From IMG/VR virus record IMGVR_UViG_3300025141_000488, positions 1-30,688 of that record: a DNA stretch of 30,688 nt. One strand, 5' to 3'. Below are positions 18,202 to 30,688 of this stretch, piece by piece. The notes beneath the pieces are model-generated. The model made no database searches, had not been told where the DNA came from, and saw nothing but the letters and a program-made list of their open reading frames with translations. The DNA comes from a virus. The translations under genes were made by a program, and so were the position numbers. Within the stretch, counting starts at the first letter, position 1. Every line of letters begins with the position of its first letter.

Positions 18202-18203
18202 AG

Positions 18204-19283
18204 TCAGTCCCTTATCAGTCGTTGCATGGCCAATTGCCACGCGTTGTCGACATTTGCCCGATGGGCGGGGAACGGCACGATGTTGCGCAAATGGTCCAGC
18301 TGCTCAACCGTGAACTCACTGGCCAGTTCCTGGGTGCTCATGTGATCGGTCATGCGACCAATGTTGAAGCGCTGACGGGGCGGAAGCTGTGCCCCTTGCA
18401 TCGCCTCCAGGATGATGTTTCGCAGTTGGTCTATCGACTCAATGCTGGGCGGATCAAGATTTGTTCCCCGCTGCATAGCAGGGCTGGGCGTGCGTGCACG
18501 CAGGAACTCAATGAACTCGTCGGACGCCTCATGCGGCATGATGGCGCTTCCGGCCAAGACTTGATTGGTGCCGGGTCGACCTGGAACCATGAACGTGGGT
18601 GTCTGCATCGCGGCGGTGAAGTCGGACGGATTGTTGAACCTTGGCAGTCCGCTTGCCGTCCGCTCCATGCCGATCTTTTTGCTGGCAAGGACCGGCTGGC
18701 GGATACCGGTGTCGCCACTGCCAATGGATATGGGTAGGGTGCTCCTGCTGGCGTTGTTGACCATGCCCATGTCGACGAGTTCGCTGCGCACGTTTCCCCC
18801 ACGCTTCGTCTTGAGTCCCTTTGCGATTCCTTCTGGTGCGCCCATGCCTTCCAACAGTTCCACCAGCGGGTCAACGTCTGCCTCGTCAACGCCCAGCGTG
18901 CCGCCCCGCAGCTCCGCACTTGGAGCCGCCTTGCTAATGATGTCCGCCATGTCGCGGCCAGGACGCACGCCCGGTCCCGGCTGCCCAAACAGTTCGCGCA
19001 CAAAGCGCAACGCTTGCGGGTTCACTCGATCCAGGCGCATCAGCATCTTGGTGACGGATGCCAAATCCCCCATCGACCCCGGCATCTCGCCAATCTTCAT
19101 CATGCCGGGGTTTCGGCGCAGCAGCTCTATATGGGACATTAGCTCGGGCTGGTATTCGGCTTCTCGCTTGGCACGCAACTCAGGCGCCGGCGCAGCAAGC
19201 GGCATGGCGTTTACACCCGGCGCACCCGTTGTCATCGCCGTCGTTGGAAACCGCTGATTGGCCAGCCGGTTGAGCATCGTCAT
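18204..19283 (-). CDS. Hypothetical head-region protein sharing an N-terminal motif with its neighbour (359 aa)
   Basis: No family is recognised. Residues 6-17 read RLANQRFPTTAM, identical to residues 15-26 of the next gene upstream; the rest of the two proteins does not obviously align. The body is helical with clusters such as HIELLRRNPGMMKIGEMPG and VDPLVELLEGMGAPEGIAKG. The start overlaps the upstream stop by ATGA (19280-19283). It lies between terminase and portal, so a packaged or head-completion role is possible (inference). A GTTTACAC core lies at 19209-19216. Confidence 0.6.
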   Translation of the reverse strand: MTMLNRLANQRFPTTAMTTGAPGVNAMPLAAPAPELRAKREAEYQPELMSHIELLRRNPGMMKIGEMPGSMGDLASVTKMLMRLDRVNPQALRFVRELFGQPGPGVRPGRDMADIISKAAPSAELRGGTLGVDEADVDPLVELLEGMGAPEGIAKGLKTKRGGNVRSELVDMGMVNNASRSTLPISIGSGDTGIRQPVLASKKIGMERTASGLPRFNNPSDFTAAMQTPTFMVPGRPGTNQVLAGSAIMPHEASDEFIEFLRARTPSPAMQRGTNLDPPSIESIDQLRNIILEAMQGAQLPPRQRFNIGRMTDHMSTQELASEFTVEQLDHLRNIVPFPAHRANVDNAWQLAMQRLIRD

Positions 19284-19912
19284 TTAAGCATGCCCCCCAG
19301 TACCAGGTCGATGGCCTGCTGCAGTTCTACAAAGTCCGCTTCGTCCGCCATCTCAACGAGCTTGTTGGTGCCCTCGGGCAGACTGCCCGCTGTGCCGCCC
19401 TGTTTATACAGTCCCTGCGGCGATAGGAAGGTTTTGATGTCCCGCAGCTGCTGGTGGGACAAGCCGCTTCTTTTCAGCATCGACGCATAGGCTTGCGGGC
19501 TCTGGCCCAGATTGAGCTTGTTCAGGTAGTCGTCAATCTGGCTAATCACCGCCATGGGCTCTTTCATGTACTGCGGCACAAACGTGGAGCGGTCGCTTTT
19601 GAGGTAAGATCCCAGCGGGTCGCTTGTTTTCTGCGCAGCTGCACCTGGGCGACCAAGTTTCCATTTGGGCACCTTCGACAGGATGCCTGCGCCCACTCCC
19701 ACTGGCGGCTCAAAGCCCACCTGTCCCTGCTCCAGCAGGCGTGCCACGGGACTGGTCATGGCATCGCCTGGCGCTTGCAGCCGTGGCGATGGTTGCGGCT
19801 CGGGCATCTGGTTGGTCTGCCCTGCTCCCGTGGACATCGCCGTGGTCGGAAAGCGCTGATTGGCGAGCCGTCGAAGCAGATTCTCATTGCCGTATCCCAC
19901 GCCAGCAGGCAT
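19280..19912 (-). CDS. Hypothetical head-region protein with RLANQRFPTTAM motif (210 aa)
   Basis: A 210-residue protein is coupled to terL by a TGATG overlap at 19912 and to the next gene by ATGA. Its N-terminus carries the same 12-residue motif as the downstream neighbour, followed in both by a Gly/Pro/Met-rich linker. The C-terminal half is helical (QIDDYLNKLNLGQSP, then LVEMADEADFVELQQAIDLV). Its function is unknown. The shared peptide could be a targeting or binding tag for a common virion partner (inference). Confidence 0.6.
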   Translation of the reverse strand: MPAGVGYGNENLLRRLANQRFPTTAMSTGAGQTNQMPEPQPSPRLQAPGDAMTSPVARLLEQGQVGFEPPVGVGAGILSKVPKWKLGRPGAAAQKTSDPLGSYLKSDRSTFVPQYMKEPMAVISQIDDYLNKLNLGQSPQAYASMLKRSGLSHQQLRDIKTFLSPQGLYKQGGTAGSLPEGTNKLVEMADEADFVELQQAIDLVLGGMLK

Positions 19913-21372
19913 CAGCCCAACACCCCCGTTTGGCGCAACTTGCGTTGCGTTTTAATGATGTTCTCACCTCGAAACGGGTTTTTGTCGGGTGGCTTTTCGG
20001 CTTCTGAAGGCGTGTAGATGTGCAGCATCCCATAACGCAGCGCATCCATCGCATGATCCTCAGACCGTGGGCTAATGTCTTCCCGGTTCTTGTCGTCGCG
20101 GGTGATGGTCGGAGCCGTGCGCATGAGGTTGGGGGCCTGCTTGCCAAATACCCGCAAAAACCCTCGATGCAGTGCCGTGTTGATGATTCGCCAACCGTTG
20201 ATCTTGGCTTCACGTCCCACAGCCGCCTTGGTCAGCGACATCCCGGCCTCCCGGAACACATCTTCAGCGGTATTGGCCGTATCCTCGCCCAAACGACGCT
20301 TAATCCACATATCGTGCGGGGCATAGATCCGGTCGGGCTGGCGACCCTGTGTAAACACACAGGCACGAATCATCTCGTCGATGCCCGATGCATTTTCATG
20401 CGCCGAGCGCTCGGCTTCGTAATACTCGCCAATCACATACACCCGGTCGTCGTAATCGACCGTCAGCAGCAGACAGCAACAAGGCGCGTATTCGCCATAG
20501 TCGATGGCAGCAAACAGCGGCCAGTCTTGCGGGATCATAAACGGCTTGGTGTGGATTTCCGGCTCCACCCACTCGAAGAACCCACCTACCAGTGCTCGCC
20601 AATCCCCTTCCAGCCAGGCTTTTACCAGCTCAGGATCGCCAACGCCACGCAAACGAGACGTGTACAACGGGTCCGCATCCAGCAGCGCTCGGTTGTCCTC
20701 GACACGGGCCGGTATAAACATCCGGTCCATGCCGGTGTCTGGATCTACAAACGTGTCGATGTTGCTCAGCGTCTGGGGTTCATCAGGAATGCCGAAATAC
20801 GCCTGCACGGCGTGGTGACCAGGGCCACCGGGGTTGCCGGTGGATCTCATGCGCTTGTGACGCGCCACGCCGCGCAGACGAGACTTGGTGCGGTTGTAGC
20901 AGGCCAAATCCTCCCATTCGGGCAGCTCATCAAAGCCAATCCAGCTCCAGGAGTGACCCAGATACTTGCTGAAATCGAAGACATTTTCCATGTGCCGAAA
21001 ACGCAACACAGCGCCATTGGGCCAGATCCACTGATAAGCTCCGGCTTTCCAGCTGGCCCCGGTAAGCGGGTAGATTTGGTGCGAGCGGTGCACCAGCTCG
21101 TCCAAGGCCGGATAAGAGCGCCTAAACAACACGCCCTGCCACGCCTGCCCCTGGCTCACGTCCTGCAAATAATCACCCAGCAGGTAATCGCTCTTGCCCC
21201 CACCGGCTGCGCCCCCATAGAACAACTCGTCTACAAACGCAGCACGAATGGCAGCCGATTGCGGCCCCGGTTGTGGCGACCATGCAGACTGCACCGGCAC
21301 CGGCTTCTTGGGTTTGCCATTGCCCTTGGTCGGGTCTTTTGGAGCGGCCAGCTTGTCAGCGGCCGTGGTCAC
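19912..21372 (-). CDS. terL: Terminase large subunit (DNA-packaging ATPase and nuclease)
   Basis: The start is GTG 21372, which overlaps the terS stop as GTGA and gives 486 residues; a longer frame from 21405 would overlap terS more. The Walker A motif is GGAAGGGKS (residues 53-61) and Walker B is WIGFDE with D148-E149. The C-terminal RNase-H-like nuclease shows AAIDYGE (D291), IYAPHDMW (D354) and SEDHAMDALRYGM (D439/D443), the usual acidic set. The enzyme cuts concatemeric phage DNA and drives it into the head through the portal. The family and function are clear; whether packaging is headful or site-specific cannot be told. A GTGTAAAC core lies at 20349-20356 inside a CCTGTGT/ACACAGG hairpin. 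Confidence 0.95.
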   Translation of the reverse strand: MTTAADKLAAPKDPTKGNGKPKKPVPVQSAWSPQPGPQSAAIRAAFVDELFYGGAAGGGKSDYLLGDYLQDVSQGQAWQGVLFRRSYPALDELVHRSHQIYPLTGASWKAGAYQWIWPNGAVLRFRHMENVFDFSKYLGHSWSWIGFDELPEWEDLACYNRTKSRLRGVARHKRMRSTGNPGGPGHHAVQAYFGIPDEPQTLSNIDTFVDPDTGMDRMFIPARVEDNRALLDADPLYTSRLRGVGDPELVKAWLEGDWRALVGGFFEWVEPEIHTKPFMIPQDWPLFAAIDYGEYAPCCCLLLTVDYDDRVYVIGEYYEAERSAHENASGIDEMIRACVFTQGRQPDRIYAPHDMWIKRRLGEDTANTAEDVFREAGMSLTKAAVGREAKINGWRIINTALHRGFLRVFGKQAPNLMRTAPTITRDDKNREDISPRSEDHAMDALRYGMLHIYTPSEAEKPPDKNPFRGENIIKTQRKLRQTGVLG

Positions 21373-21761
21373 GCGGCAGCCTCTGAGCGGTTCTGCTCCA
21401 ACCACTCTTCCATAGAGGTAGCACGGGGCGGGCTGTGGATCGGCAACGCCAGATCCTTGCCGTCTTTACCGGTCTGCTCCAAACGCTCAACGTAGCCGCG
21501 ATGCTTGGCCTGGCATTTTAAGTAGAAAATGATGGCATTGGCCTGACCGTTGCGGATCAGCTCAAACAGCTGCGACTCCGCAATGTCGATATTGACCTCC
21601 CGACAACGCTCATGGTGTTCTTTCAGGTCGGGATTCTTCTTAATTCGCCGGGTAAGACTTGTTCGATCTACGCCCAGCGCCTTGGCTGCGTGCAGCAGAA
21701 CCCCCGCACACTTGTCCAGCGCTTCTTTAACCTGTTCCTCAGTATGCTTCGCAGGGGGCAT
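21369..21761 (-). CDS. terS: Terminase small subunit (DNA recognition)
   Basis: The preferred start is ATG 21761 (MPPAKHTEEQVKEAL), giving 130 residues. A helix-turn-helix is visible at about residues 20-45 (VLLHAAKALGVDRTSLTRRI), followed by a helical oligomerisation segment (SQLFELIRNGQANAIIFYLK) and KHRGYVERLEQ, a pattern common in small terminases. It lies directly upstream of, and overlaps, terL. It should bind phage DNA to start packaging. The upstream ribosome binding site is weak. Confidence 0.8.
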   Translation of the reverse strand: MPPAKHTEEQVKEALDKCAGVLLHAAKALGVDRTSLTRRIKKNPDLKEHHERCREVNIDIAESQLFELIRNGQANAIIFYLKCQAKHRGYVERLEQTGKDGKDLALPIHSPPRATSMEEWLEQNRSEAAA

Positions 21762-22050: not shown

Positions 22051-22452
22051 CTAAAACGGTAAGTCGTCGTCCTGGTCGAGCGGCGGAGAGGCCGCCATCG
22101 CTTCAGAATTGGGCGTTGAACCCGGAGCCGTATCGAGAAATAACAGCTCCCGGACGACACATTCAGTGCGATAATGCTTGTTGCCGGAATCATCATCCCA
22201 GGTGCGCGTTTGCCAGCGGCCCAGCACATAGAGCTTGGCCCCCTTCTTACAATACTGCGTCACGACCTCAGACAGCCGACCCCATATAACAAGAGGCACC
22301 CACTCAACCCGAGACTTGCGGTCGTCGCCAGTGCCCCACTCCTCATTAACGGCCAACGACACGTTACACACCGTGCTGTTGCCTGCCTGCTTTAACTCCG
22401 GGTCCGCACCCAGATTTCCAATAAAAGTGCAGACGTTTATGCCTCTTGCCAT
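22051..22452 (-). CDS. ssb: Single-stranded DNA-binding protein
   Basis: This is a 133-residue SSB. The OB-fold spans about residues 1-110 (MARGINVCTFIGNLGADPEL, VSLAVNEEW, WVPLVIWGRLSEVVTQYCKK, LYVLGRWQTRTW). A flexible linker follows, then the acidic C-terminal tip DDDLPF, which in bacterial SSBs recruits partner enzymes. It coats single-stranded DNA in phage replication and recombination. AAGGAGG abuts the ATG with no spacer, which is unusually tight and may lower translation. It is the only replication gene in the window. Confidence 0.95.
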   Translation of the reverse strand: MARGINVCTFIGNLGADPELKQAGNSTVCNVSLAVNEEWGTGDDRKSRVEWVPLVIWGRLSEVVTQYCKKGAKLYVLGRWQTRTWDDDSGNKHYRTECVVRELLFLDTAPGSTPNSEAMAASPPLDQDDDLPF

Positions 22453-22515
22453 CCTCCTTCCATTTCTGCTCCCATTTCCCCCTTGTTCAACGCTTTTTTA
22501 ACGAATCTCACGCTT

Positions 22516-22559
22516 AAATGGCGAAACGGGCATGCTCTTTGAATAAATGCCCGCCATTT
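22516..22559 (-). terminator. Bulged hairpin between the 79-aa gene and ssb
   Basis: AAATGGC (22516-22522) and GGGCAT (22528-22533) pair with ATGCCC (22547-22552) and GCCATTT (22553-22559), leaving a 5-nt bulge GAAAC and a 13-nt loop. It could partly terminate or stabilise the leftward transcript ahead of ssb. Confidence 0.45.
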
Positions 22560-22574
22560 TCTTGCGTGGCGACC

Positions 22575-22814
22575 CTATGACTCCTCAGTGTCCGGCGGCA
22601 CCTCGTCGTCAAACTCCGCCAGCACCTGCTGCGTGGCCTGCTGAGCCTGTTCCACCCGCTGGGAAGCCAAAACCACCAGCGGTGCCGCCTCCACGTCCTT
22701 CGGCACCAGCTCATCAAGCCGATTGCACAGATTCTCCCAGGCTTCTATCTCCTGCGACTGAGCCTCGCATAGCCGTAAAGCGCTCTGCGCACGTTCTTGC
22801 CACGTTTTTACCAA
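22575..22814 (-). CDS. Small helical hypothetical protein (79 aa)
   Basis: The start is TTG 22814 (MVKTWQERAQSALRL), with GAGAGGTGG about 8 nt upstream. The protein is helical with a leucine/glutamine coiled-coil pattern (ERAQSALRLCEAQSQEIEAW, then VEQAQQATQQVLAEF) and an acidic tail. No family is recognised. It sits between two other leftward genes, with a dyad-repeat region just upstream. Confidence 0.6.
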   Translation of the reverse strand: MVKTWQERAQSALRLCEAQSQEIEAWENLCNRLDELVPKDVEAAPLVVLASQRVEQAQQATQQVLAEFDDEVPPDTEES

Positions 22815-22870
22815 AAATTACCACCTCTCAGCTCTTTTCAAATTCTTTTAGAACTCTTTTATGATCCCCA

Positions 22871-22929
22871 GGACATCCGTGTCCGGGGTCCGAGGACAGG
22901 GGTGTCCTGGGTGAGGCGACATTCGTGTC
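22871..22929. promoter_or_regulatory. Three spaced GACA-N4-TGTC dyads, operator-like
   Basis: GGACA-TCCG-TGTCC (22871-22884), AGGACA-GGGG-TGTCCT (22893-22908) and GACA-TTCG-TGTC (22918-22929) lie 22 and 25 bp apart, near two helical turns. The outer two share the direct repeat CGTGTCCGGGG. They lie upstream of the leftward 79-aa gene, so a repressor binding array or a set of RNA hairpins are the obvious options. Confidence 0.5.
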
Positions 22930-22989
22930 CGGGGCTGCTGGGACAAACCTGGCAGGGCTTGCGACGGCAATCAAACGACGCCTTTTAAC

Positions 22990-23025
22990 GGGATAAGGAA
23001 TTTCATGGCCTGAAATCCTTGTCCC
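22990..23025 (-). terminator. 15-bp bulged hairpin downstream of the 83-aa gene
   Basis: GGGATAAGGAATTTCA (22990-23005) pairs with TGAAATCCTTGTCCC (23011-23025) across a 5-nt loop, with one bulged A and one G-U pair. It lies downstream of the 83-aa gene on the leftward strand. No T-run follows, so termination is uncertain. Confidence 0.45.
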
Positions 23026-23149
23026 GGCACCTCTCAGCTGAAAAGAATCACAGGGAGAAGAACAGCCCCCATAAGGACCGGATGAATCGTTGCCCTTGTC
23101 CGCTTTACGCAGACGACTGCCCCTCTCCCCGCTATCTCCGTTCCTTTGC

Positions 23150-23401
23150 TCAAGGCTTGAAGAGAATGATCGGAGTCCGCTTGCCCACCCAAGCGCCGCT
23201 CAGGTTGAAGTCAATCCACTCCCTGGCCTCGTCATAGCCCATACCCTGCTGCATAAAGCATTCGAGCAACTTCTCGTCGTCGTATACGGCAACAGGAGGG
23301 CTACCACACCGCTCGCCAACGCCCACCAAAGCCTCGTCGCAGCCCTCCCAGAAGGCGATCTCCTTGTCGTAGGCGGCAATCTCGTCCCTGGTGACACACA
23401 T
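23150..23401 (-). CDS. Small conserved phage-type hypothetical protein (83 aa)
   Basis: The start ATG 23401 has AAGGAGAG a few bases upstream. The protein reads DEIAAYDKEIAFWEGCDEAL, then GVGERCGSPPVAVYDDEKLL and AREWIDFNLSGAWVGKRTPI. The combination 'GVGERCG...VYD...A.E...FN..GAWVG..TPI' recurs in uncharacterised phage proteins (recalled pattern; no named function). It is the last leftward gene before the control region. Confidence 0.75.
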   Translation of the reverse strand: MCVTRDEIAAYDKEIAFWEGCDEALVGVGERCGSPPVAVYDDEKLLECFMQQGMGYDEAREWIDFNLSGAWVGKRTPIILFKP

Positions 23402-23568
23402 CGGCTCTCCTTCCCCTCTCGTCTCTTAGGAGTACAATTTGACCGTGATAACCGGCCCGGAACCGGGGGGTCGCGTGCGGCTTCACCTTCGCCCACCGCC
23501 AAACTCGCCAGCCAGACAGCCAGGCACGAGCTAAGCCCTTGCAGCACAACCACTTAGCCCGTGCACTC

Positions 23569-23618
23569 AAGCTGGGCCAGCTTGCTCCCACAACAGCCTA
23601 AGTCCCTGTAATTACAGG
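23569..23618. promoter_or_regulatory. Two palindromes, operator-like
   Basis: AAGCTGGGCCAGCTT (23569-23583) is a 7-bp dyad with a 1-bp centre. CCTGTAATTACAGG (23605-23618) is a perfect 14-bp palindrome. Both lie between the start of the last leftward gene and the rightward promoter, a usual place for repressor sites. Confidence 0.45.
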
Positions 23619-23681
23619 CGGTTGCGGGGTTCCTCAACTGGCGGCTTCCCCCAGTGGTCCCCCAGCCTGGACGGCCAGGCC

Positions 23682-23912
23682 GTGTAAACGCCCCGGCACC
23701 CGGCCGTGGCCAAAGGAGTACGAATTCGTGTTTCGTGAGAGGCTATGCGTCTGTTTCCACCGGTCCCGGTGAACCAACCAAGGGACACGGCCACCTGCTC
23801 ACACACAACGCCGGGGGGCCGTGTAAACGGTGCGGCCGGTGGTAGTCCAGGGCACCGCACCCGGTAACCCCAGTCACCGTCAGACGGCCCTCGAATCTTT
23901 TTTCGTTTAAAC
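23682..23912. other. Three stray GTKTAMAC cores, possibly decayed modules
   Basis: GTGTAAAC at 23682-23689 and 23821-23828 and GTTTAAAC at 23905-23912 have short complementary arms of 2-4 bp only. Near the first, AAAGGAG precedes a GTG-started frame of 14 codons; near the second, CTCACACACAAC recalls the module spacer. No complete hairpin 2 is present. Confidence 0.4.
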
Positions 23913-23935
23913 GCCCTACCCCTGGAAGATTTTCC

Positions 23936-23964
23936 TTGACAGTGCCAGAATAGCACCGTAAGTT
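23936..23964 (+). promoter_or_regulatory. Sigma70-like rightward promoter
   Basis: TTGACA (23936-23941, perfect -35) is followed after 17 bp by TAAGTT (23959-23964, a 3-of-6 match to the -10 box). It points into the small-gene array. It is the best promoter candidate I see for the plus-strand operon. Confidence 0.5.
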
Positions 23965-24119
23965 CATACCCGTCAGCAAGGCACCGCTGGCCCCTACCGG
24001 CACTCGGTTGCGCAACGCACCGGGGGGCGCCCCAGGCCCGACTCGACAGACTGAGTCACGCGGCCCGCGTCCAGAGAAGCGGAGAGGGAGCATAGCAGAC
24101 CCAAGGCACCGGAGACAGA

Positions 24120-24154
24120 CGGCCCCCAAGTGAAAGACGGGGGCTGGTTTTCTC
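24120..24154 (+). terminator. Intrinsic-terminator-like hairpin in the operon leader
   Basis: GGCCCCC pairs with GGGGGCT around an 11-nt A-rich loop and is followed by GGTTTTCTC. It lies about 150 nt downstream of the promoter candidate and about 180 nt before the first gene, so it could work as an attenuator or as the target of antitermination. Confidence 0.5.
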
Positions 24155-24241
24155 ATCTCGTCACTGGTTACCGGGGAAGGTCGTTAGCAGCGGCCCAAGT
24201 CAAGGCGAATCAAGATTGTGTGTGAGAGTGAAACAAGCAGT

Positions 24242-24336
24242 TGACGAGGGCTGGCCAGCACGTGTAAACGTGCCGGTCAGTAAGTCGCGGCGCTGGTCCC
24301 AAGCCCGGCGCGATCACTCACACAAGGAGCAAGATC
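24242..24336 (+). repeat. Intergenic module 1
   Basis: This copy shows the full architecture: TGACGAGGG box; hairpin 1 with 12-nt arms (one A-C mismatch, 24251-24280) around GTGTAAAC; linker TAAGTCGC; hairpin 2 (24290-24311) with arms GCGCUGG/CCGGCGC and loop UCCCAAGC; spacer ATCACTCAC; AAGGAG (24324-24329); then ATG 24337. Unlike the others, no recognisable gene ends at its left side. Confidence 0.9.
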
Positions 24337-24555
24337 ATGACAAGCACATTGACCCAAGCCAGGCGCACCAAGGCGGAAGCGGAAGCGGTAGCGGCACGCT
24401 GCAATGTAGACGAGTCAACGCACCCGGTGGGCGAGCGCTGGACGTTCGCGGCCGTGCAAGGGCACGACAGCTACAGCGACACCTTGCTTGACTTTTGGAC
24501 GGTGGAAGTTCACGACGAAAACGGGCAGCACATTGGCCCCGTTATTAGAGGCTGA
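24337..24555 (+). CDS. Small hypothetical protein, cassette 1 (72 aa)
   Basis: This 72-residue protein is led by AAGGAG, 7 nt before the ATG. The N-terminus is helical and Ala-rich (TLTQARRTKAEAEAVAARCN). The second half is beta-like with several aromatics (GERWTFAAVQGHD, LLDFWTVEVHDENG). Its stop TGA is the first codon of module 2. The family is not recognised. As first gene of the array it may be the earliest and most strongly expressed (inference). Confidence 0.7.
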   Translation: MTSTLTQARRTKAEAEAVAARCNVDESTHPVGERWTFAAVQGHDSYSDTLLDFWTVEVHDENGQHIGPVIRG

Positions 24556-24641
24556 CGAGGGGCGCACCGTTTACACGGTGCGTTAAGTCGCGGTGCCGGT
24601 CCCAAGCCCGGCACATTCACTCACTCACAAGGAGCAGCAAG
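24553..24641 (+). repeat. Intergenic module 2
   Basis: Hairpin 1 arms CGCACCG/CGGUGCG surround the GTTTACAC core (24569-24576); hairpin 2 arms are GUGCCGG/CCGGCAC with loop UCCCAAGC. The TGA of the box is the stop codon of the 72-aa gene. At 89 bp it is the shortest full copy. Confidence 0.9.
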
Positions 24642-24902
24642 ATGGAGATTTACACGTCAGATAATGAGAAGGTAAAAATCTTAACCCAGGATTCCGGCAT
24701 GTTGTACTTCTACTCAACGAAGCCGGGTGACTTACTGGGAGAGGGCGAGCGACTGGATAGCCTGACGCTAACGCCTGACGAGATGATTAGCCTGGGCCGC
24801 ACGTTGACCACTCGCGGCGAAGCCCTCAGGCACGCACAGCACCTGGACCATGGCTGGGCGCGAGAGATGGCCGAAACAGCCAAGGGACGCAAGAAGCAAT
24901 GA
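24642..24902 (+). CDS. Small hypothetical protein, cassette 2 (86 aa)
   Basis: The 86-residue protein starts MEIYTSDNEKVKILTQDSG and contains LYFYSTKPGDLLGEGERLDS, a beta-rich first half, then a helical second half (LTPDEMISLGRTLTTRGEAL) ending in a basic tail (KGRKKQ). The ribosome binding site is AAGGAGCAGCAAG. The stop TGA starts module 3. No family is recognised; the basic tail could bind nucleic acid, but nothing else supports this. Confidence 0.7.
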   Translation: MEIYTSDNEKVKILTQDSGMLYFYSTKPGDLLGEGERLDSLTLTPDEMISLGRTLTTRGEALRHAQHLDHGWAREMAETAKGRKKQ

Positions 24903-24994
24903 CGAGGGGTACCGGGCACGTTTACACGTGCCCGGTATTAAGTCGCAAAGGCCGGTCCCAAGCCCGGCCACTCACTCACACAAGGAGCAAGATC
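24900..24994 (+). repeat. Intergenic module 3
   Basis: Hairpin 1 has perfect 11-bp arms UACCGGGCACG/CGUGCCCGGUA around GTTTACAC (24920-24927). Hairpin 2 arms are GGCCGG/CCGGCC, loop UCCCAAGC. The box TGA is the stop of the 86-aa gene. Confidence 0.9.
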
Positions 24995-25714
24995 ATGGCA
25001 CCCACAATCAAGAAGCTACCGCGTGCGAAGTCGCGTGAGGAATGGCTCAACAACGCTATCAGGTTGTCCCGGCCAATCTTCCGCAAACTCAACTGCCCGT
25101 TGCCTAAGAAAGTGCGGGCAGCGTGTTCATGGACGTCGCACGGTGCACGGTCAGCGGCCATTGGTCAGTGCTGGACGTACGAGGCCAGCAAGGATCAGAC
25201 GGTGGAGATACACGTCTCCCCCGTGCTGGACAATGTATTGACCGAGGGCCAGCAGGGCGTGCTTGACGTGTTCGTGCACGAACTCGGACACGCGGCGGCG
25301 GGGATTTCGGAGGGCCACAAGGGCGAGTTCGCACGAGTGGCCCGCGAGTTGGGGCTGGCGGGGCCGTTGACCGCCACGAACGCCGGGCCCGAGTTCGTGA
25401 AAATGTTCAAGCCGATAGTCAAGGCACTGGGGCCGTACCCGCACGCTGAGCTAAGGCCCAGCATGCTGGTACCCGCTGGCCCAGGTGGCGGCGCTGGCAC
25501 CCCAAGCGGCCGAGGCGGCGCACCCGTGCCCCGCACGAGCGGCCCACGGAAGCAGGGCACGCGAATGCTCAAGGTTATGTGCAAAGATTGCGGTTACACA
25601 CTGCGCACCACTCGCACCTGGCTGGAGATGCAAGGCACGCCAAAGTGCCCGTGCAACGATACACCAATGTGGTCCGAGGTCACGCACCCGGACGAAGCAT
25701 GCAAGCGTAGCTGA
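24995..25714 (+). CDS. SprT-like zinc metalloprotease (239 aa)
   Basis: ATG 24995 has AAGGAG at the usual distance; an open frame also extends upstream through the module but lacks a ribosome binding site. HELGH (residues 95-99) is the HExxH zinc-protease motif, and GHKGEF supplies a likely third ligand (H108), as in SprT/Spartan-type domains. After a Gly/Pro-rich linker (about 160-190) comes a four-Cys zinc ribbon (C196, C199, C218, C220: CKDC and CPC), also typical of the family. Spartan proteins degrade DNA-bound or crosslinked proteins; phage SprT-like proteins are common but poorly studied. It is the only gene here with a clear enzymatic prediction, and it might remove host DNA-bound proteins (inference). 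Its stop TGA starts module 4. Confidence 0.85.
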   Translation: MAPTIKKLPRAKSREEWLNNAIRLSRPIFRKLNCPLPKKVRAACSWTSHGARSAAIGQCWTYEASKDQTVEIHVSPVLDNVLTEGQQGVLDVFVHELGHAAAGISEGHKGEFARVARELGLAGPLTATNAGPEFVKMFKPIVKALGPYPHAELRPSMLVPAGPGGGAGTPSGRGGAPVPRTSGPRKQGTRMLKVMCKDCGYTLRTTRTWLEMQGTPKCPCNDTPMWSEVTHPDEACKRS

Positions 25715-25807
25715 CGAGGGGTGCCCGCACCGTTTAAACGGTGCGGGCATTAAGTCGCGAGCACGGTCCCAAGCCCGTGCATTCACTCACACAAGGAGCA
25801 AGATCAC
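25712..25807 (+). repeat. Intergenic module 4
   Basis: Hairpin 1 has perfect arms UGCCCGCACCG/CGGUGCGGGCA around GTTTAAAC (25732-25739). Hairpin 2 arms are GCACGG/CCGUGC, loop UCCCAAGC. It is the last copy of the linker-GC / loop-AAGC subtype that occupies modules 1-4. Confidence 0.9.
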
Positions 25808-26089
25808 ATGATCACGTTGACTTTTAGCATGGGTGCCACGCTGGACGTTCCGGCACAGTGTGTCCTTGAGCAGCCCGAGCAAGGACCGTGCGACGAGCAT
25901 GTTGAGTACTGGGTGTCTCGTGTCGATTGGTCGCAGATCACGCCAGGGGAGATCCGCACAGAGTTGGCCGAATATGGCGCGTGGGATGCTGAGGAATTGG
26001 CTGACGATGATGAAAACCGGCAACGATTGCTGTGGGTTGGTAGTGGATCCTGGCAAGAAGATGCATTTTCCGATGACCGCACCGTTTAA
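25808..26089 (+). CDS. Small conserved-type hypothetical protein (93 aa)
   Basis: The 93-residue protein contains YWVSRVDWSQITPGEIRTEL and EYGAWDAEELADDDENRQRL followed by LWVGSGSW. The 'EYGAWD.EEL.D...N..R.LW' pattern recurs in uncharacterised phage and plasmid proteins (recalled; no function known). The stop TAA lies inside an extra GTTTAAAC hairpin (26079-26097), so the last residues (DDRTV) are encoded by hairpin DNA. This suggests a junction moved into the gene end and changed its C-terminus. Confidence 0.75.
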   Translation: MITLTFSMGATLDVPAQCVLEQPEQGPCDEHVEYWVSRVDWSQITPGEIRTELAEYGAWDAEELADDDENRQRLLWVGSGSWQEDAFSDDRTV

Positions 26090-26097
26090 ACGGTGCG
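26079..26097 (+). repeat. Extra hairpin 1 overlapping a gene end
   Basis: GCACCG/CGGTGC arms around GTTTAAAC (26084-26091) sit directly before module 5. The TAA stop of the 93-aa gene is within the core. It looks like the remnant of a second module, of the GCACCG arm type seen in modules 2, 4 and 7. Confidence 0.8.
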
Positions 26098-26101
26098 GGG
26101 T

Positions 26102-26197
26102 TGACGAGGGGTGCCGAGCACGTTTAAACGTGCTTGGTATTAAGTCACGGCACCGGTCCCAAGTCCGGTGCACTCACTCACACAAGGAGCACGAATC
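26102..26197 (+). repeat. Intergenic module 5
   Basis: Hairpin 1 arms GCCGAGCACG/CGUGCUUGGU surround GTTTAAAC (26122-26129), with G-U pairs. Hairpin 2 arms are GCACCGG/CCGGUGC with loop UCCCAAGU. It is the first copy of the linker-AC / loop-AAGU subtype. Confidence 0.9.
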
Positions 26198-26506
26198 ATG
26201 AGCAAGTCAAGCCCGTGGGGCGCAGTACAAGGCACCGACCGCGTAGCTGAGGGTATTGAATTCGTTTACACGGAAAGCCACGGTGGCTTTCACATATCGG
26301 CGGAACGGCTCAAGCAGGTGCCGCAACGGCTGCAAAACTGGGCGGCACGCTGGGCAAAAGGCTGGGGGCCGCAATGGTACGAAGAGGATTGCTGTGCGGC
26401 TGTAATCCCGGTCACGTTCCCTGGGGAGTTTTCGGCAGAAGACGTAGCCCGAGCGAAAAGCTACTTGGCGAATTTTGACGAGTCAATTCAACAGGCAAAC
26501 ACTTGA
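26198..26506 (+). CDS. DUF7007-like protein (102 aa)
   Basis: The 102-residue protein reads SPWGAVQGTDRVAEGIEFVY, then TESHGGFHISAERLKQVP and WYEEDCCAAVIPVTFPGEF. The 'PWG..Q......GI.FV.T.SHGG......R....P...WYEEDC......FP..F' layout matches what I recall of DUF7007, a family of unknown function in phages and mobile elements. AAGGAG lies before ATG 26198. A GTTTACAC core sits inside the gene (26264-26271). The stop lies 3 nt before module 6. Confidence 0.75.
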   Translation: MSKSSPWGAVQGTDRVAEGIEFVYTESHGGFHISAERLKQVPQRLQNWAARWAKGWGPQWYEEDCCAAVIPVTFPGEFSAEDVARAKSYLANFDESIQQANT

Positions 26507-26509
26507 TAT

Positions 26510-26614
26510 TGACGAGGGGTGCCGGGCACGTTTAAACGTGCTCGGCATTAAGTCACGGCACCGGTCCCAAGTCCGGTGCATTTCACTCACTCACATTCGG
26601 GAGAATTATTTATC
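26510..26614 (+). repeat. Intergenic module 6
   Basis: Hairpin 1 arms GCCGGGCACG/CGUGCUCGGC surround GTTTAAAC (26530-26537), with one mismatch. Hairpin 2 is GCACCGG/CCGGUGC, loop UCCCAAGU. The usual AAGGAG end is replaced by CGGGAGAATTATTTATC before the ATG, so the 3' part has diverged. Confidence 0.85.
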
Positions 26615-26962
26615 ATGGATCATCTTATGCTGATGCTGAACATGGCCGATTTGCGTGCGGCCCTCGCCACTGAGGACCCCAGTGATCGCACTGGGCGCAT
26701 CGTCAAGCTCGGCGCTTCAAGCGAGAAGGTCACGGTTGTGGAGATGCATAACTCCGCATGGGTTTTTAAAAGGGCAGGTCGCAACCACTGGACGTGCGGC
26801 TGCGCAGAGTACGATCCGGCTGAGTTTTACGTTGGCCCCGCGTTGCCCGATTCCGACCTGCAAGGAGGGCAGATTGATGGTGTTTGCATTTCGACAGGCA
26901 CGCCTATTAAAAAGGAGTGCGTGGAGTGGTATTATCTGACCAGTTTTCCGGTCAAGTCGTAG
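26615..26962 (+). CDS. Small hypothetical protein (115 aa)
   Basis: ATG 26615 follows GGGAG by 11 nt; ATG 26627 is an in-frame alternative. The N-terminus is helical (LMLNMADLRAALATED). Then come beta-like segments VVEMHNSAWVFKRAGRNHW and CGCAEYDPAEFYVGPALP, and a C-terminus ECVEWYYLTSFPVKS. Two close cysteines (CGC) are present, with no full zinc motif. Family and role unknown. Confidence 0.65.
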   Translation: MDHLMLMLNMADLRAALATEDPSDRTGRIVKLGASSEKVTVVEMHNSAWVFKRAGRNHWTCGCAEYDPAEFYVGPALPDSDLQGGQIDGVCISTGTPIKKECVEWYYLTSFPVKS

Positions 26963-26963
26963 C

Positions 26964-27060
26964 TGACGAGGGATACCCGCACCGTTTAAACGGTGCGGGT
27001 ATTAAGTCACGGCACCGGTCCCAAGTCCGGTGCACTCACTCACTCACAAGGAGGCACAAA
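26964..27060 (+). repeat. Intergenic module 7
   Basis: Hairpin 1 has perfect arms UACCCGCACCG/CGGUGCGGGUA around GTTTAAAC (26984-26991). Hairpin 2 is GCACCGG/CCGGUGC, loop UCCCAAGU. The upstream gene stops with TAG one base before the box TGA. Confidence 0.9.
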
Positions 27061-27528
27061 ATGCCCAAAAGCCAACCCACCTGCGCAGACCGTGTTAACG
27101 GCAGCTGGCAATCGACGCGGCAGGATTTGCATTGCATGTATGGGGGCACTGCGTCTGAGGTAGAGTTGCGTGCGTTTCTCGCGGACCAGGGACAGGACGC
27201 GGAAGAGCTACGCAACATGGACCGGGACGAGTTAGACCAACAAGCGGCCGATATCCGAGGCGAGTACGGCCTGGAGTTCAGCTATGTGGCCCCGGACACG
27301 TTTGAGGATCAGCCAGACGGCTACTATCGCTACCTGTTTAGCACGGGCGGGCCAGGTACGGAGTTGCGGTTCTATCCTCGGGCCACTTCTGAGGAACGGC
27401 TGGATAGGGCTGAGTACTGGTTTCTCGACTGGTATGACGGGGCCAGCATTACAGTCACAACGGACGAGGTTGTTCAGGCCGTCTGGGAAGATTTATACGA
27501 CACCGGGGCGGTATCCTGCAATTACTGA
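27061..27528 (+). CDS. Conserved phage/plasmid-type hypothetical protein (155 aa)
   Basis: ATG 27061 follows AAGGAGG. The N-terminal half is helical (GTASEVELRAFLADQGQD). The second half reads DGYYRYLFSTGGPGTELRFY and RAEYWFLDWYDGASITVTTD. The combination 'YYRY..S.GGP..E.RFY...EYWFLDW.DGA' recurs in proteins of plasmids and phages with no assigned function (recalled pattern). Its stop TGA starts module 8. A soluble, acidic protein is predicted. Confidence 0.75.
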   Translation: MPKSQPTCADRVNGSWQSTRQDLHCMYGGTASEVELRAFLADQGQDAEELRNMDRDELDQQAADIRGEYGLEFSYVAPDTFEDQPDGYYRYLFSTGGPGTELRFYPRATSEERLDRAEYWFLDWYDGASITVTTDEVVQAVWEDLYDTGAVSCNY

Positions 27529-27629
27529 CGAGGGGTGCTGAGCACGTTTAAACGTGCCCAGCATTAAGTCACAGCTACGGTCCCAAGTCCGTGGCACTCA
27601 CTCACACTCACTACCATGGAGGAAACACC
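27526..27629 (+). repeat. Intergenic module 8
   Basis: Hairpin 1 arms GCUGAGCACG/CGUGCCCAGC surround GTTTAAAC (27546-27553), with one mismatch. Hairpin 2 arms GCUACGG/CCGUGGC keep pairing by compensating changes relative to module 7. The spacer is lengthened by an extra CACTCA unit and ends ATGGAGG before ATG 27630. Confidence 0.9.
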
Positions 27630-28115
27630 ATGGAAGGTCAGACGTTTACACACTTCGGTGTCGGTGCCAATGTCTGGGCACTGGCCAACGGGATCAACGC
27701 CTGCGTTGCCCGGCTCGTCGAGGAGGGCGGCTCCCAAAATCTTGAGCGCTACGGCCATGGGGTGTATGAGTTCAGCCGACCCGTGACGCTGGACGAGGTG
27801 GAGGTGTCGCCCCTGGATGGTGCACTGTCGGCTGCGGAAGATGTCGGCGTTAAGCCCGTAGAGATTCACCGGAGCTGGGCGGACAAGCAGAAAGACACCA
27901 GCACAAACGAGCCTCGGTACAACGGTCGGACGGCCAAGGAGTTGGTTGTGGCCCTTGAGGAGGTGTGTTACGGGCTGGAGGAACTGGCCAGCGACGTTGA
28001 CGACAATGGTCTGCTTCTCGGCCATATCCAGAACCACGCCGACAAACTGGAGGTGCTGTTTAACCAGATCGGTGAGGCGCTGGGGATGGAGGAATACGGC
28101 GGCGTGTGTAGCTGA
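27630..28115 (+). CDS. Hypothetical protein (161 aa)
   Basis: ATG 27630 follows GGAGG by 7 nt. The second half is strongly helical (TAKELVVALEEVCYGLEELA, then LLGHIQNHADKLEVLFNQIG). The first half has GANVWALANGINACVARLVE and a charged linker. A GTTTACAC core lies at codons 5-7 (27644-27651), very near the start. No family is recognised. The stop TGA begins module 9. Confidence 0.7.
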   Translation: MEGQTFTHFGVGANVWALANGINACVARLVEEGGSQNLERYGHGVYEFSRPVTLDEVEVSPLDGALSAAEDVGVKPVEIHRSWADKQKDTSTNEPRYNGRTAKELVVALEEVCYGLEELASDVDDNGLLLGHIQNHADKLEVLFNQIGEALGMEEYGGVCS

Positions 28116-28212
28116 CGAGGGGTGCTGAGCACGTTTAAACGTGCTCAGCATTAAGTCACAACTCCGGTCCCAAGTCCGGGGTATTCACTCACACATGGAA
28201 GGAGAACGTGTT
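28113..28212 (+). repeat. Intergenic module 9
   Basis: Hairpin 1 has perfect 10-bp arms GCUGAGCACG/CGUGCUCAGC around GTTTAAAC (28133-28140). Hairpin 2 arms are ACUCCGG/CCGGGGU, loop UCCCAAGU. The ribosome binding site is GGAAGGAG (28198-28204). Confidence 0.9.
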
Positions 28213-28458
28213 ATGCATGATACGGATGGTGCAGATAAGTTCATAATGATCCGAATGGACAGCGAGCACGACATAGCAGGAACAGAACTGGATCGGCTAC
28301 GGACTGTCGGGCCTGTCGATGTGGAGCTTCTGGCTCAGCAGCGACGGATACTGGGCGATGTCGTGGCGAGTCGTAGAGCGCTGACCCGTGGGCAGATCGA
28401 GGCCGTGGAAGGCGTGTGCGAACTACTGCATGCCATGTTCGACAAGCTGGAGCGCTGA
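28213..28458 (+). CDS. Small hypothetical protein (81 aa)
   Basis: ATG 28213 is chosen over in-frame ATG 28195 because GGAAGGAG lies about 8 nt before it and the earlier ATG is part of that site. The protein has an acidic N-terminus (MHDTDGADKF), then helices (LLAQQRRILGDVVASRRALT, GQIEAVEGVCELLHAMFDKL). No family is recognised. The stop lies 6 nt before module 10. Confidence 0.65.
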   Translation: MHDTDGADKFIMIRMDSEHDIAGTELDRLRTVGPVDVELLAQQRRILGDVVASRRALTRGQIEAVEGVCELLHAMFDKLER

Positions 28459-28464
28459 ATAAAA

Positions 28465-28563
28465 TGACGAGGGGTGCTGGGCACGTTTAAACGTGCCCAG
28501 TATTAAGTCACAGCTACGGTCCCAAGTCCGTGGCACTCACTCACTACACAAGGAGGGCTTTAC
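28465..28563 (+). repeat. Intergenic module 10
   Basis: Hairpin 1 arms CUGGGCACG/CGUGCCCAG surround GTTTAAAC (28485-28492), perfectly paired. Hairpin 2 arms are GCUACGG/CCGUGGC. The ribosome binding site is AAGGAGG. Confidence 0.9.
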
Positions 28564-28755
28564 ATGGCACGCAAAGCCGAAGCTATTCAGCACGTATGTC
28601 ATCCCGAGTCGTCGTGGAAAGAGTACGATGCTCGTGGTATCTACCTCTGCACTGTCTGTGCGGCGTGCGAGGAAAGCAAGCTGGCGAAGTATCGGCCGGA
28701 TGTTTTGACCAACGCAAACTATGAAGCCGACGAGCCTATCGAGCCAGAGGATTAA
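28564..28755 (+). CDS. Small conserved Cys-containing protein (63 aa)
   Basis: The protein reads HVCHPESSWKEYDARGIYLC followed by TVCAACEESKLAKYRPDVL and ends DEPIEPED. The 'YDARGI.L..VC..CE..KL..YRP.VL....Y..DEPI.PE' pattern is, as I recall, a widespread small protein of phages and plasmids with unknown role. Cysteines and histidines (HVCH, C..C) could bind a metal ion. AAGGAGG precedes ATG 28564. Confidence 0.8.
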   Translation: MARKAEAIQHVCHPESSWKEYDARGIYLCTVCAACEESKLAKYRPDVLTNANYEADEPIEPED

Positions 28756-28756
28756 C

Positions 28757-28853
28757 TGACGAGGGGCACCGAGGCGTGTAAACGCTTCGGTGTTAAGTCA
28801 CAGTCACGGTCCCAAGTCCGTGGCACTCACTCACTACGCAAGGAGCAAGAATC
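28757..28853 (+). repeat. Intergenic module 11
   Basis: This is the first copy with arm type CACCGAGGCG/CGCUUCGGUG (ten pairs, one G-U) around GTGTAAAC (28776-28783). Hairpin 2 arms are GUCACGG/CCGUGGC, loop UCCCAAGU. Confidence 0.9.
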
Positions 28854-29156
28854 ATGCATGATCCACGGAAGTGGAAAGATCAGCCCGCGTGCTTGGCTGA
28901 ATCATCACAGGTCTTCGGTTACATCCCCCTCAAGGAGTCCGGGTCTGCTCAGATCTTGTTGTTCGGCGGCATGTGGTATATGACCGCTGGCAACCTGTTC
29001 GGTTCGCAGACAGTTCGCACCAATGACATTGCCACGGTCGGCACGCTCATTTCCGACCTCGCGCTACGCAAAGGCGCAGAAACGATTAAGCTGGATGACT
29101 ACGAGGGGGTGGAGATCGTAGAGAACAGCAAGGAGTTGAGCGATGAGGTTTCCTGA
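28854..29156 (+). CDS. Small hypothetical protein (100 aa)
   Basis: ATG 28854 follows AAGGAGCAAGAATC. The protein has beta-like hydrophobic segments (QVFGYIPLKESGSAQILLFG, MWYMTAGNLFG) and a helical stretch (VGTLISDLALRKGAETIKLD). Its stop overlaps the start of the next gene by 14 nt (29143-29156), the first case in the array where two genes share one module, so the two are probably co-translated. Confidence 0.7.
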   Translation: MHDPRKWKDQPACLAESSQVFGYIPLKESGSAQILLFGGMWYMTAGNLFGSQTVRTNDIATVGTLISDLALRKGAETIKLDDYEGVEIVENSKELSDEVS

Positions 29157-29352
29157 GCGCACTTACATCGACGACAACTACGGCGTGTGGGACGACATGG
29201 ACGATCCCGACATGGTTGAGTTTTACCACCAGGTTCAGAAGGAGAATGTTGAAAAGAAATGCGAAGGCTGTGGTCAGACGGTGATGCTGCGTCCAGACTA
29301 CGGATTCTGCAACATCTGCGCTGATAAACGGGAACGGGGGTGGGACATCTGA
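29143..29352 (+). CDS. Small zinc-finger-like protein (69 aa)
   Basis: ATG 29143 follows AAGGAG inside the 3' end of the previous gene. The C-terminal half has CEGCG and CNICADK, a CxxC...CxxC ribbon. The N-terminal half is acidic (DDNYGVWDDMDDPDMVEF). Such small acidic zinc proteins are frequent in phage early regions; the target is unknown. The stop TGA starts module 12. Confidence 0.75.
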   Translation: MRFPERTYIDDNYGVWDDMDDPDMVEFYHQVQKENVEKKCEGCGQTVMLRPDYGFCNICADKRERGWDI

Positions 29353-29444
29353 CGAGGGGCACCGAGGCGTGTAAACGCTTCGGTGTTAAGTCACAGCTAC
29401 GGTCCCAAGTCCGTGGCACTCACTCACTACGCAAGGAGCAAACA
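29350..29444 (+). repeat. Intergenic module 12
   Basis: Hairpin 1 arms are CACCGAGGCG/CGCUUCGGUG around GTGTAAAC (29369-29376), identical to module 11. Hairpin 2 arms are GCUACGG/CCGUGGC, as in modules 8, 10 and 13. Confidence 0.9.
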
Positions 29445-29642
29445 ATGGCCAAGCAGCTTGCCAGACCAGTAAAGTGCGACGAGAAGCATCTTCGGTCGCT
29501 CGACGTAATACGGGAAATGGGCATCGTCAATATGTGGGGCGGGGCTGAGCCCCTGCGCCAAGTCTATCCCGAACTATCAGAAGCACAGGCGGCGGAAATT
29601 CTGATCTACTGGATGGAAACTTTTAGCGACCGCCATTCATGA
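29445..29642 (+). CDS. Small conserved-type hypothetical protein (65 aa)
   Basis: ATG 29445 follows AAGGAGCAAACA. The protein contains REMGIVNMWGGAEPLRQVYP and AAEILIYWMETFSDRH. 'NMWG...L....PELS...A..IL.YWM.TF..RH' is a pattern I recall from small plasmid and phage proteins of unknown role. The stop TGA starts module 13. Confidence 0.75.
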   Translation: MAKQLARPVKCDEKHLRSLDVIREMGIVNMWGGAEPLRQVYPELSEAQAAEILIYWMETFSDRHS

Positions 29643-29738
29643 CGAGGGGCACCGAGGCGTGTAAACGTGCTCGGTGTTAAGTCACAGCTACGGTCCCAAG
29701 TCCGTGGCACTCACTCACTACACAAAGGAGCAAGAATC
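29640..29738 (+). repeat. Intergenic module 13, apparent chimera
   Basis: The 5' arm (CACCGAGGCG) is of the module 11/12 type, but the 3' arm (CGUGCUCGGUG) matches the 'CGTGCTC' type of modules 6 and 9, so the stem has a bulge. The switch falls at GTGTAAAC (29659-29666). Hairpin 2 is GCUACGG/CCGUGGC. Confidence 0.9.
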
Positions 29739-29930
29739 ATGGCTGATTATCAGATCAGAGTGTCCGTTAAGGCCAGTTTTCTTGTGTGCCTGGCCGCCAG
29801 CGAACTGCCGCTCGACGATGACAGGACTATGCGGCAAATCGTATTCGAACACATACGCCAGCAAATAGCGGATTCGGACGCAGAGGACGTTATTGACGAG
29901 TGGACGCCCGAAAGCATCGGACCTATGTAG
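29739..29930 (+). CDS. Small hypothetical protein (63 aa)
   Basis: ATG 29739 follows AAAGGAG. The sequence has a beta strand (YQIRVSVKASFLVCLAAS), a charged helix (DDRTMRQIVFEHIRQQIA) and an acidic C-terminus. No family is recognised. Its stop is TAG fused to the module box (TAGACGAGGGG), a one-base change of the usual TGACGAGGGG. Confidence 0.65.
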   Translation: MADYQIRVSVKASFLVCLAASELPLDDDRTMRQIVFEHIRQQIADSDAEDVIDEWTPESIGPM

Positions 29931-30023
29931 ACGAGGGGCACCGAGGCGTGTAAACGCTTCGGTGTTAAGTCGCAACTCCGGTCCCAAGTCCGGGGTAGAA
30001 CTCACTCACACATTGGAGGATTT
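29928..30023 (+). repeat. Intergenic module 14
   Basis: The box starts TAGACGAGGGG. Hairpin 1 is CACCGAGGCG/CGCUUCGGUG around GTGTAAAC (29948-29955). Hairpin 2 arms are ACUCCGG/CCGGGGU. It is the only copy that pairs linker TAAGTCGC with loop UCCCAAGU, mixing the two subtypes. The ribosome binding site is TTGGAGG. Confidence 0.9.
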
Positions 30024-30305
30024 ATGCAGCTTACGATGGCTGACTGGCTGCTCCACGGGCGGCAAACGTGCAAGGACAAACCCTATGTTGCCTGTCGTGA
30101 TGTTGTGGAGGCACACGCTATGGAACGGGTTCGAATTAGAAAAACGGCACGTCCCTATGCGGGTAGGCTGTTGGAGGTGGCAGGCCGCGAAACCTACCCC
30201 AACGGGCGAAGTGTCGTACGCGTATACCCGCCCCGGAAGAGCAAGTACTACCGGACGTTGGAGTATGAATTGCACGAGGTTCAGGAGGTGCAAGATGAGC
30301 CGTAG
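30024..30305 (+). CDS. Small basic hypothetical protein (93 aa)
   Basis: ATG 30024 follows GGAGG. The protein is rich in Arg/Lys and Tyr, with RKTARPYAGRLLEVAGRE and VRVYPPRKSKYYRTLEYEL and an acidic end. It overlaps the next gene by 11 nt. The family is not recognised; the basic beta-rich centre would suit nucleic-acid contact, but this is a guess. Confidence 0.65.
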   Translation: MQLTMADWLLHGRQTCKDKPYVACRDVVEAHAMERVRIRKTARPYAGRLLEVAGRETYPNGRSVVRVYPPRKSKYYRTLEYELHEVQEVQDEP

Positions 30306-30525
30306 AGTGCACCCTGTCGTGCGTCAGATCGTAGATCGGCAGCACGTTGGTACGCCCAACCGCGAGGTGATCGCGGCCGTAGTACGTGGCCTCAAGGACG
30401 GCTGGCGCACCTGGCGTACGCTGGATCGTCGCACGCGGCGCAAGTGGATGAATGACGCCATTCGTATACACGCGAGCAACCGCGAGTTGTATACGAATGT
30501 CATGCGGTATGGCCGAGGCGTGTAA
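30295..30525 (+). CDS. Small basic hypothetical protein (76 aa)
   Basis: ATG 30295 follows AGGAGG in the end of the previous gene, so the pair is co-translated and shares module 14. The protein is very basic and helical (VVRGLKDGWRTWRTLDRRTR, then RKWMNDAIRIHASNRELY). The stop TAA lies inside a GTGTAAAC core (30520-30527), as in the 93-aa gene ending at 26089. Confidence 0.7.
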   Translation: MSRRVHPVVRQIVDRQHVGTPNREVIAAVVRGLKDGWRTWRTLDRRTRRKWMNDAIRIHASNRELYTNVMRYGRGV

Positions 30526-30590
30526 ACGGGGGTGGGGGTGGTTAAATACCCCCCCCCCCTACCCCCCCCCATTCACAAGGAGGAATGGAA
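30513..30590 (+). repeat. Damaged intergenic module 15
   Basis: Only the 5' arm (CCGAGGCG) and core GTGTAAAC of hairpin 1 are left. The rest is replaced by G5-T-G5-T-G2, a 7-nt A/T loop, and C11-TA-C9 (30528-30570). ATTCACAAGGAGG then leads to the next gene. The G and C tracts can pair and are prone to slippage, G-quadruplex formation or sequencing error. Confidence 0.75.
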
Positions 30591-30688
30591 GTGAACTGGA
30601 CTGGAGTAACATTGCGGGAGTGGCGAGAGTCGCAACCGCCAGATCGTGAGAAGGTGGGCCGTGGCAAGTGGATCGACTGCCTTAGCCG
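30591..30688 (+). CDS. Start of a further small-array gene (cut by the window edge)
   Basis: GTG 30591 lies 7 nt after AAGGAGG and is favoured over ATG 30585, which is only 1 nt away from it. The visible N-terminus reads NWTGVTLREWRESQPPDREK and then VGRGKWIDCLS, open to the end of the window. Too little is present to assign a family. Confidence 0.55.
   Translation, partial: MNWTGVTLREWRESQPPDREKVGRGKWIDCLS

Follow-up and report, generated by a model that had tools for sequence, protein, structure and literature searches.

To our knowledge, little has been established about what twister ribozymes do in nature. A review of these ribozymes (PMC5408937), which includes type P5, defines them by a U-A cleavage step beside stem P1, the stems P1, P2 and P4, and two pseudoknots. 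In phage-like prophage DNA, ribozymes of another class, the hammerheads, occur in clusters around single genes or small groups of genes; a report on them (PMC3088659) proposes that long phage transcripts are thereby cut into mRNAs for single genes, and shows cleavage for three arrays. The PeSL elements of T4-type phages, as cited in PMC4503421, are repeated intergenic stem-loops at which related phages shuffle small accessory genes. Theta ribozymes of gut phages (PMC10879173) are HDV-like and linked to suppressor tRNAs.

We analyzed a stretch of 30,688 nucleotides of a viral genome (IMG/VR record IMGVR_UViG_3300025141_000488; hereafter the window), which carries 14 repeated elements, modules 1 to 14, each located 5′ of a small plus-strand gene. 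We consider it very probable that this is a gene array punctuated by twister ribozymes, in which cleavage would yield single-gene mRNAs and cassettes would be shuffled at the ribozymes; the effect of cleavage on expression and the recombination pathway are what we infer from the arrangement. The array shares with the clustered prophage hammerheads the presence of multiple self-cleaving ribozymes flanking genes and the proposed transcript processing. It differs in ribozyme class and in number, the detailed hammerhead example in the available text of PMC3088659 having 3 copies as against 14 here and 5-8 in other contigs; in contrast to our proposal, that text describes no cassette shuffling at ribozymes. 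With PeSLs the modules have accessory-gene shuffling and exchange between elements in common. PeSLs, according to PMC4503421, contain an early promoter, whereas the modules lack a sigma-70-type promoter and are ribozymes by the evidence below. Theta ribozymes likewise illustrate repeated phage use of self-cleaving ribozymes, but do not punctuate arrays of protein genes.

Assignment of the modules to type-P5 twister ribozymes

All 14 modules of the window matched the type-P5 twister family of Rfam (RF02684, clan CL00120) on the strand of the genes. Covariance-model scores over the full model were 40.3-56.8 bits (gathering cut-off 37.6 bits), with E-values from 5e-10 to 8e-6, far beyond chance. 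In the closest relative, 11 of 12 modules matched. The matches in the window are:

24243..24308, plus strand: module 1, twister-P5, 40.3 bits
24554..24611, plus strand: module 2, twister-P5, 56.8 bits
24901..24967, plus strand: module 3, twister-P5, 55.1 bits
25713..25778, plus strand: module 4, twister-P5, 54.5 bits
26103..26168, plus strand: module 5, twister-P5, 48.1 bits
26511..26576, plus strand: module 6, twister-P5, 51.6 bits
26965..27030, plus strand: module 7, twister-P5, 52.4 bits
27527..27592, plus strand: module 8, twister-P5, 46 bits; strongest candidate for a recombinant in the core region (left part as L08, right part as L09 of the relative)
28114..28179, plus strand: module 9, twister-P5, 52.1 bits
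28466..28531, plus strand: module 10, twister-P5, 47.5 bits
28758..28821, plus strand: module 11, twister-P5, 52.4 bits
29351..29414, plus strand: module 12, twister-P5, 51.6 bits
29641..29705, plus strand: module 13, twister-P5 (RF02684), 53.4 bits
29930..29993, plus strand: module 14, twister-P5, 54.2 bits

The initial annotation had described each module as two arms around an 8-mer core and missed its ribozyme nature. In the Rfam alignment these arms form P1 and the 8-mer is the P1 loop. P2 is formed by the invariant GAC/GUC, the cleavage site is UAA (within TTAAGTC), and a second hairpin containing UCCCAAG corresponds to P4/L4. UAAGUC, which holds the U-A cleavage dinucleotide beside P1 and a conserved A, is present in all parsed modules, and the twister model has the same conserved unpaired segments, GAGGG, UAAGUC and UCCCAAG. 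Since the module is a ribozyme, its shared blocks would be conserved for folding and catalysis.

Covariation was examined in 25 modules from the two phages. P1 paired with its own partners at 172 of 175 positions (shuffled mean 130), P4 at 167 of 175 (shuffled mean 132) and the T2 contact in 24 of 25 modules (shuffled mean 19.9). None of 5000 shuffles, which ignore the relatedness of the modules, reached the observed pairing of P1, P4 or T2. The T2 contact joins the base after GTC (L2) to the base after CCCAAG (L4) and switches between G-C and A-U; the R-Y pairs comprise 15 A-U, 7 G-C and 2 G-U, and one contact, in module L02 of the relative, is broken. A pseudoknot T1 could be formed by GGG in L1 and the complementary CCC in L4, which are both invariant and hence do not covary. 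On the family match and the covariation of P1, P4 and T2, the modules are type-P5 twister ribozymes and are predicted to cleave themselves. Sequence and structure agree over the whole 58-position model, including the U-A cleavage step, P1/P2/P4 and a covarying T2. Distinctive are the long P1, of 7-11 bp, whose GTTTAAAC/GTGTAAAC loop is specific to the lineage, and the array of 14 copies, in which nearly all genes are preceded by one.

The loop 8-mer is over-represented genome-wide. In positions 1-24100 of the window, 16 sites were found against approximately 0.6 expected, on both strands and also inside structural genes:

3987, 7123, 10215, 11431, 11531, 15154, 15725, 16368: 8-mer sites
17827, 19209, 20349, 21912, 22024, 23682, 23821, 23905: 8-mer sites, continued

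It is conserved in the closest relative. A relative with 74-77% identity lacks it over 12.2 kb, and the other twister-array phages lack it as well. This distribution points to a lineage-specific DNA feature that is also present in the P1 loop of every ribozyme, and raises the question whether the dispersed copies are stoperator-like. A role as DNA element and a role as ribozyme are compatible and do not exclude each other. The 65-nt element might combine a ribozyme that makes the genes independent messages, a DNA-binding site in the P1 loop (stoperator-like, or a replication or recombination signal) and a cassette joint; taken as one joint claim, we regard this as unlikely. In another reading the modules would work at the DNA level, as operators, stoperators or recombination sites that operate through the palindromic 8-mer, and the hairpins would be incidental. 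The excess of sites on both strands, conserved in one relative and absent from the other, speaks for it. It is nevertheless quite improbable, as it explains neither the twister-P5 match and the P1/P4/T2 covariation nor the identical punctuation in other phages that lack the 8-mer. Although each array gene is preceded by two hairpins, it is highly improbable that these are intrinsic terminators or RNase-processing or stability hairpins instead of ribozymes: neither hairpin is trailed by a U-run, terminator-like sites show no excess (5 against 7.7 expected, none at modules), and the unpaired GAGGG, UAAGUC and UCCCAAG match the twister model.

Just right of the array in the closest relative (L035:14790-15011) an HTH_31-like DNA-binding protein is encoded, which is a candidate for binding the dispersed copies of the 8-mer. 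In the 77% identical relative (L029:1500-2000) genes are led by CACTCACTTCACTCAC repeats and GGAG and there are no twister modules; GGCGCC is over-represented in that phage.

Layout of the array and its occurrence in other phages

The array of co-directional small genes occupies 24.2-30.5 kb, at the right end of the 30.7 kb phage contig. The structural genes are on the minus strand and include, by PHROGs, the terminase (19912-21405) and the major head protein (13812-14810); 16117-18240 is portal-like, judged by its position only. Each ribozyme lies between the preceding stop codon and the ribosome-binding site of the next gene. The preceding stop overlaps the 5′ end of the ribozyme or is within approximately 15 nt of it for 13 modules, while module 1 is preceded by non-coding DNA. 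The ribosome-binding site and ATG follow approximately 60 nt 3′ of the predicted cut. There is no ribozyme between the genes of the two overlapping pairs, 28854-29156/29143-29352 and 30024-30305/30295-30525. Two partial elements were also found:

26077..26099, plus strand: leftover P1 hairpin CCGCACCGTTTAAACGGTGCGGG, directly 5′ of module 5; its TAA is the stop of the preceding gene
30508..30528, plus strand: leftover P1 left arm and core GGCCGAGGCGTGTAAACG; its TAA is the stop of ORF 30295-30525

A scan for promoters of sigma-70 type only gave 2 in 22400-30688, against 2.7 expected, and none within a module. Most likely, judging from this layout, one long transcript would be cut at UU^AA by each ribozyme into single-gene messages. 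The upstream mRNA would be left ending in the P1 hairpin with a 2′,3′-cyclic phosphate, and the downstream mRNA would begin with a 5′-OH, the P4 hairpin, the CACTCAC leader and AAGGAG. Since each gene has its own ribozyme and ribosome-binding site, it would work as a cassette, and recombination between near-identical ribozymes would shuffle such cassettes among related phages.

With a general twister pattern followed by Rfam, twister-P5 arrays were found in six other IMG/VR contigs, each with 5-8 matches over the cut-off (G004 = L052, G006 = L056, G008 = L058, G011 = L061/L071, G012 = L064/L070 and G017 = L069). The three inspected (L052, L056 and L058) have the order stop, ribozyme, Shine-Dalgarno, ATG on one strand. 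These phages lack the GTTTAAAC loop and the CACTCAC leader. Fifteen other IMG/VR matches of our first pattern were rejected as twisters, being negative with Rfam. This particular module occurs in one other IMG/VR record only, IMGVR_UViG_3300030329_004873 (L002/L035), the closest relative; a search for it in GTDB genomes gave no match. A DNA comparison of the arrays with cultured phages gave no relatives except for a short SprT-like match. In the open literature searched, which did not extend to the original twister paper, we found no description of twister arrays in phages, and an earlier mention is possible. A twister before almost every small phage gene, with the same layout elsewhere, suggests a testable role for these ribozymes in cutting polycistronic mRNA into single-gene units.

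Exchange of cassettes and position of the switch points

Identity between the closest relative and the window is 94.7% on the left side of the array and 99% on its right side. Between these flanks the window has the gene order a b c d e f g h i j k l m n, and the relative has A′ b X c P Q g R h S m n. The comparison supports the earlier suggestion that modules exchange cassettes: genes have been gained, lost or replaced between the two phages, with switch points inside modules. This illustrates how conserved RNA elements can serve as sites for the shuffling of small accessory phage genes, similar to the proposal for the PeSLs of T4.

Breakpoint mapping rests on nine informative junctions from the only two phages that carry the module (W, window; L, relative). 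Junction alignments placed the switch after P1 in W01/L01 and W03/L03, upstream of P4 in W07/L07, in the L4 loop in W02/L02 and W03/L04, and in the CACTCAC leader in W04/L05 and W09/L10. Seven of the nine thus exclude the core, with switches in the cleavage-site linker, L4 loop or leader. Clustering of breakpoints at the core had been named as the check on core-directed joining; the switch points were instead largely spread along the module, and core-directed recombination as a rule is not supported. Nor are breakpoints confined to a fixed core, as they would be for a site-specific recombination site. Integron attC-like and other site-specific sites were set aside since the switches map to several positions along the module. 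Crossovers use any shared conserved segment (P1 loop, cleavage-site linker, L4 loop or leader), with no dedicated core. A second phage pair, L061/L071, was uninformative for breakpoints, being 99.99% identical.

Scars of shuffling are visible as mismatched stems and one broken pseudoknot. Joins in L4 should leave such traces, and after both L4-loop switches the P4 stem is mismatched, in L02 (where T2 is also broken, A.C) as well as in L04. All four combinations of P1 type (gamma/delta) and P4 type (AACTCC/AGCTAC) occur, which is what exchange between P1 and P4 would produce. Module L03 (L035:9641-9740) has kept P1 and the cleavage-site region but lost P4/L4, and does not match RF02684. It is a candidate dead ribozyme; a working ribozyme would therefore not be required at every boundary.

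Module 8 appears to be the one good case of a core-region recombinant, better than module 13. It follows L08 (upstream gene g) on the left and L09 (downstream gene h) on the right, and it has an A.C mismatch. The switch lies in GCACGTTTAAACGTGC given one arm mutation, or in TTAAGTC given another.

Two further observations concern the cassettes. The one inserted before the SprT-like gene of the relative is followed by a duplicated piece of the 3′ end of that gene (L035:9999-10046 and 10815-10859), which places one insertion boundary inside the gene tail. Otherwise unrelated cassette genes at 28564 of the window and L035:12179 have identical first 30 bases (MARKAEAIQH), which suggests a join just inside the coding start. 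L035:16844-17686 was considered as a single-strand-annealing protein; it has no Pfam, PHROGs or NCBIfam family and its relatives are all hypothetical, and therefore no recombinase is claimed.

Origin of module 13

Module 13, at 29641-29738, consists of the following parts, given together with the gene 3′ of it:

29649..29658, plus strand: P1 left arm GCACCGAGGC, the left arm of the initial annotation
29659..29666, plus strand: P1 loop ("core") GTGTAAAC, the 8-mer over-represented genome-wide
29667..29677, plus strand: P1 right arm GTGCTCGGTGT, pairing with the left arm except for one bulged G
29678..29683, plus strand: TAAGTC, with predicted cleavage between U29678 and A29679, then the P2 3′ strand GUC (Rfam alignment; U-A step from PMC5408937)
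29686..29708, plus strand: P4/L4 hairpin AGCTACGG-TCCCAAGT-CCGTGGC (second hairpin)
29709..29738, plus strand: CACTCAC leader and ribosome-binding site AAGGAG (29725-29730), ATG at 29739
29739..29930, plus strand: 63-aa ORF (MADYQIRV...), found in the relative behind module L11

This module had been interpreted as a recombinant joined exactly at the core, with a left arm of the type of modules 11, 12 and 14, a right arm of the type of modules 6 and 9, and a bulge where the arms misfit. The left arm, CACCGAGGCG, is indeed the same in modules 11, 12, 13 and 14, and RNA folding gives a P1 with a single bulged G (-18.8 kcal/mol; -22.6 for module 12). The right-arm assignment holds for one end only. 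The arm CGTGCTCGGTG, followed by TTAAG, begins with CGTGCTC as in modules 6 (26511; CGTGCTCGGCA) and 9 (28114; CGTGCTCAGCA), but its final five bases CGGTG are those of modules 11, 12 and 14, and it ends in GGTG instead of the GGCA/AGCA of modules 6 and 9. From GACGAGG through ...CACTCACTCACTAC, modules 13 and 12 are identical except for a 3-4 nt patch. The orthologue L11 equals module 13 from the P4 right arm onward; it differs in the P4 left arm (AGTCAC, AGCTAC in module 13) and also in the P1 right arm.

The copying analysis followed module 12 without a break through the core and switched to L11 ahead of the L4 loop; only a very low cost of switching produced a short patch around the core. 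A switch exactly at GTGTAAAC is thus only one of several equal or better readings, and the junction could be explained by one L4-loop switch and a small change in a P1 arm, with no core switch needed. We lean slightly towards local mutation as the only cause of that change, a right arm CGCCTCGGTG, as in L12, having become CGTGCTCGGTG by C-to-TG with no recombination in P1. The position is labile, as module 14 has CGCTTCGGTG there and its orthologue L12 has CGCCTCGGTG; the remainder of module 13 equals module 12, and RNAfold predicts a largely intact stem. Against this, a substitution and an insertion must by chance recreate the CGTGCTC of other modules.

A single crossover at GTGTAAAC between an CACCGAGGCG module and a CGTGCTC module, as an instance of general core-directed exchange, is doubtful, and a local change is the likelier of the two. 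A hypothetical perfect parent CACCGAGCACG...CGTGCTCGGTG would fold well (-26.3), and its right arm behind an A-type left arm would yield module 13 exactly; module 8 fits a core-region switch from L08 to L09 if one additional mutation is allowed. However, neither the parent arm CGTGCTCGGTGTTAAGTC nor a parent module with CGTGCTCGGTG was found in the window, the relative or IMG/VR, and a join to module 6 or 9 would leave GGCA or AGCA instead of GGTG. The junctions that exclude the core and the copying analysis also argue against it.

By either route, mutation or an old exchange in the core region, the bulge would be a small change where P1 is most distant from the cleavage site, and it has probably not inactivated the ribozyme. 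Module 13 scores above module 12 with RF02684.
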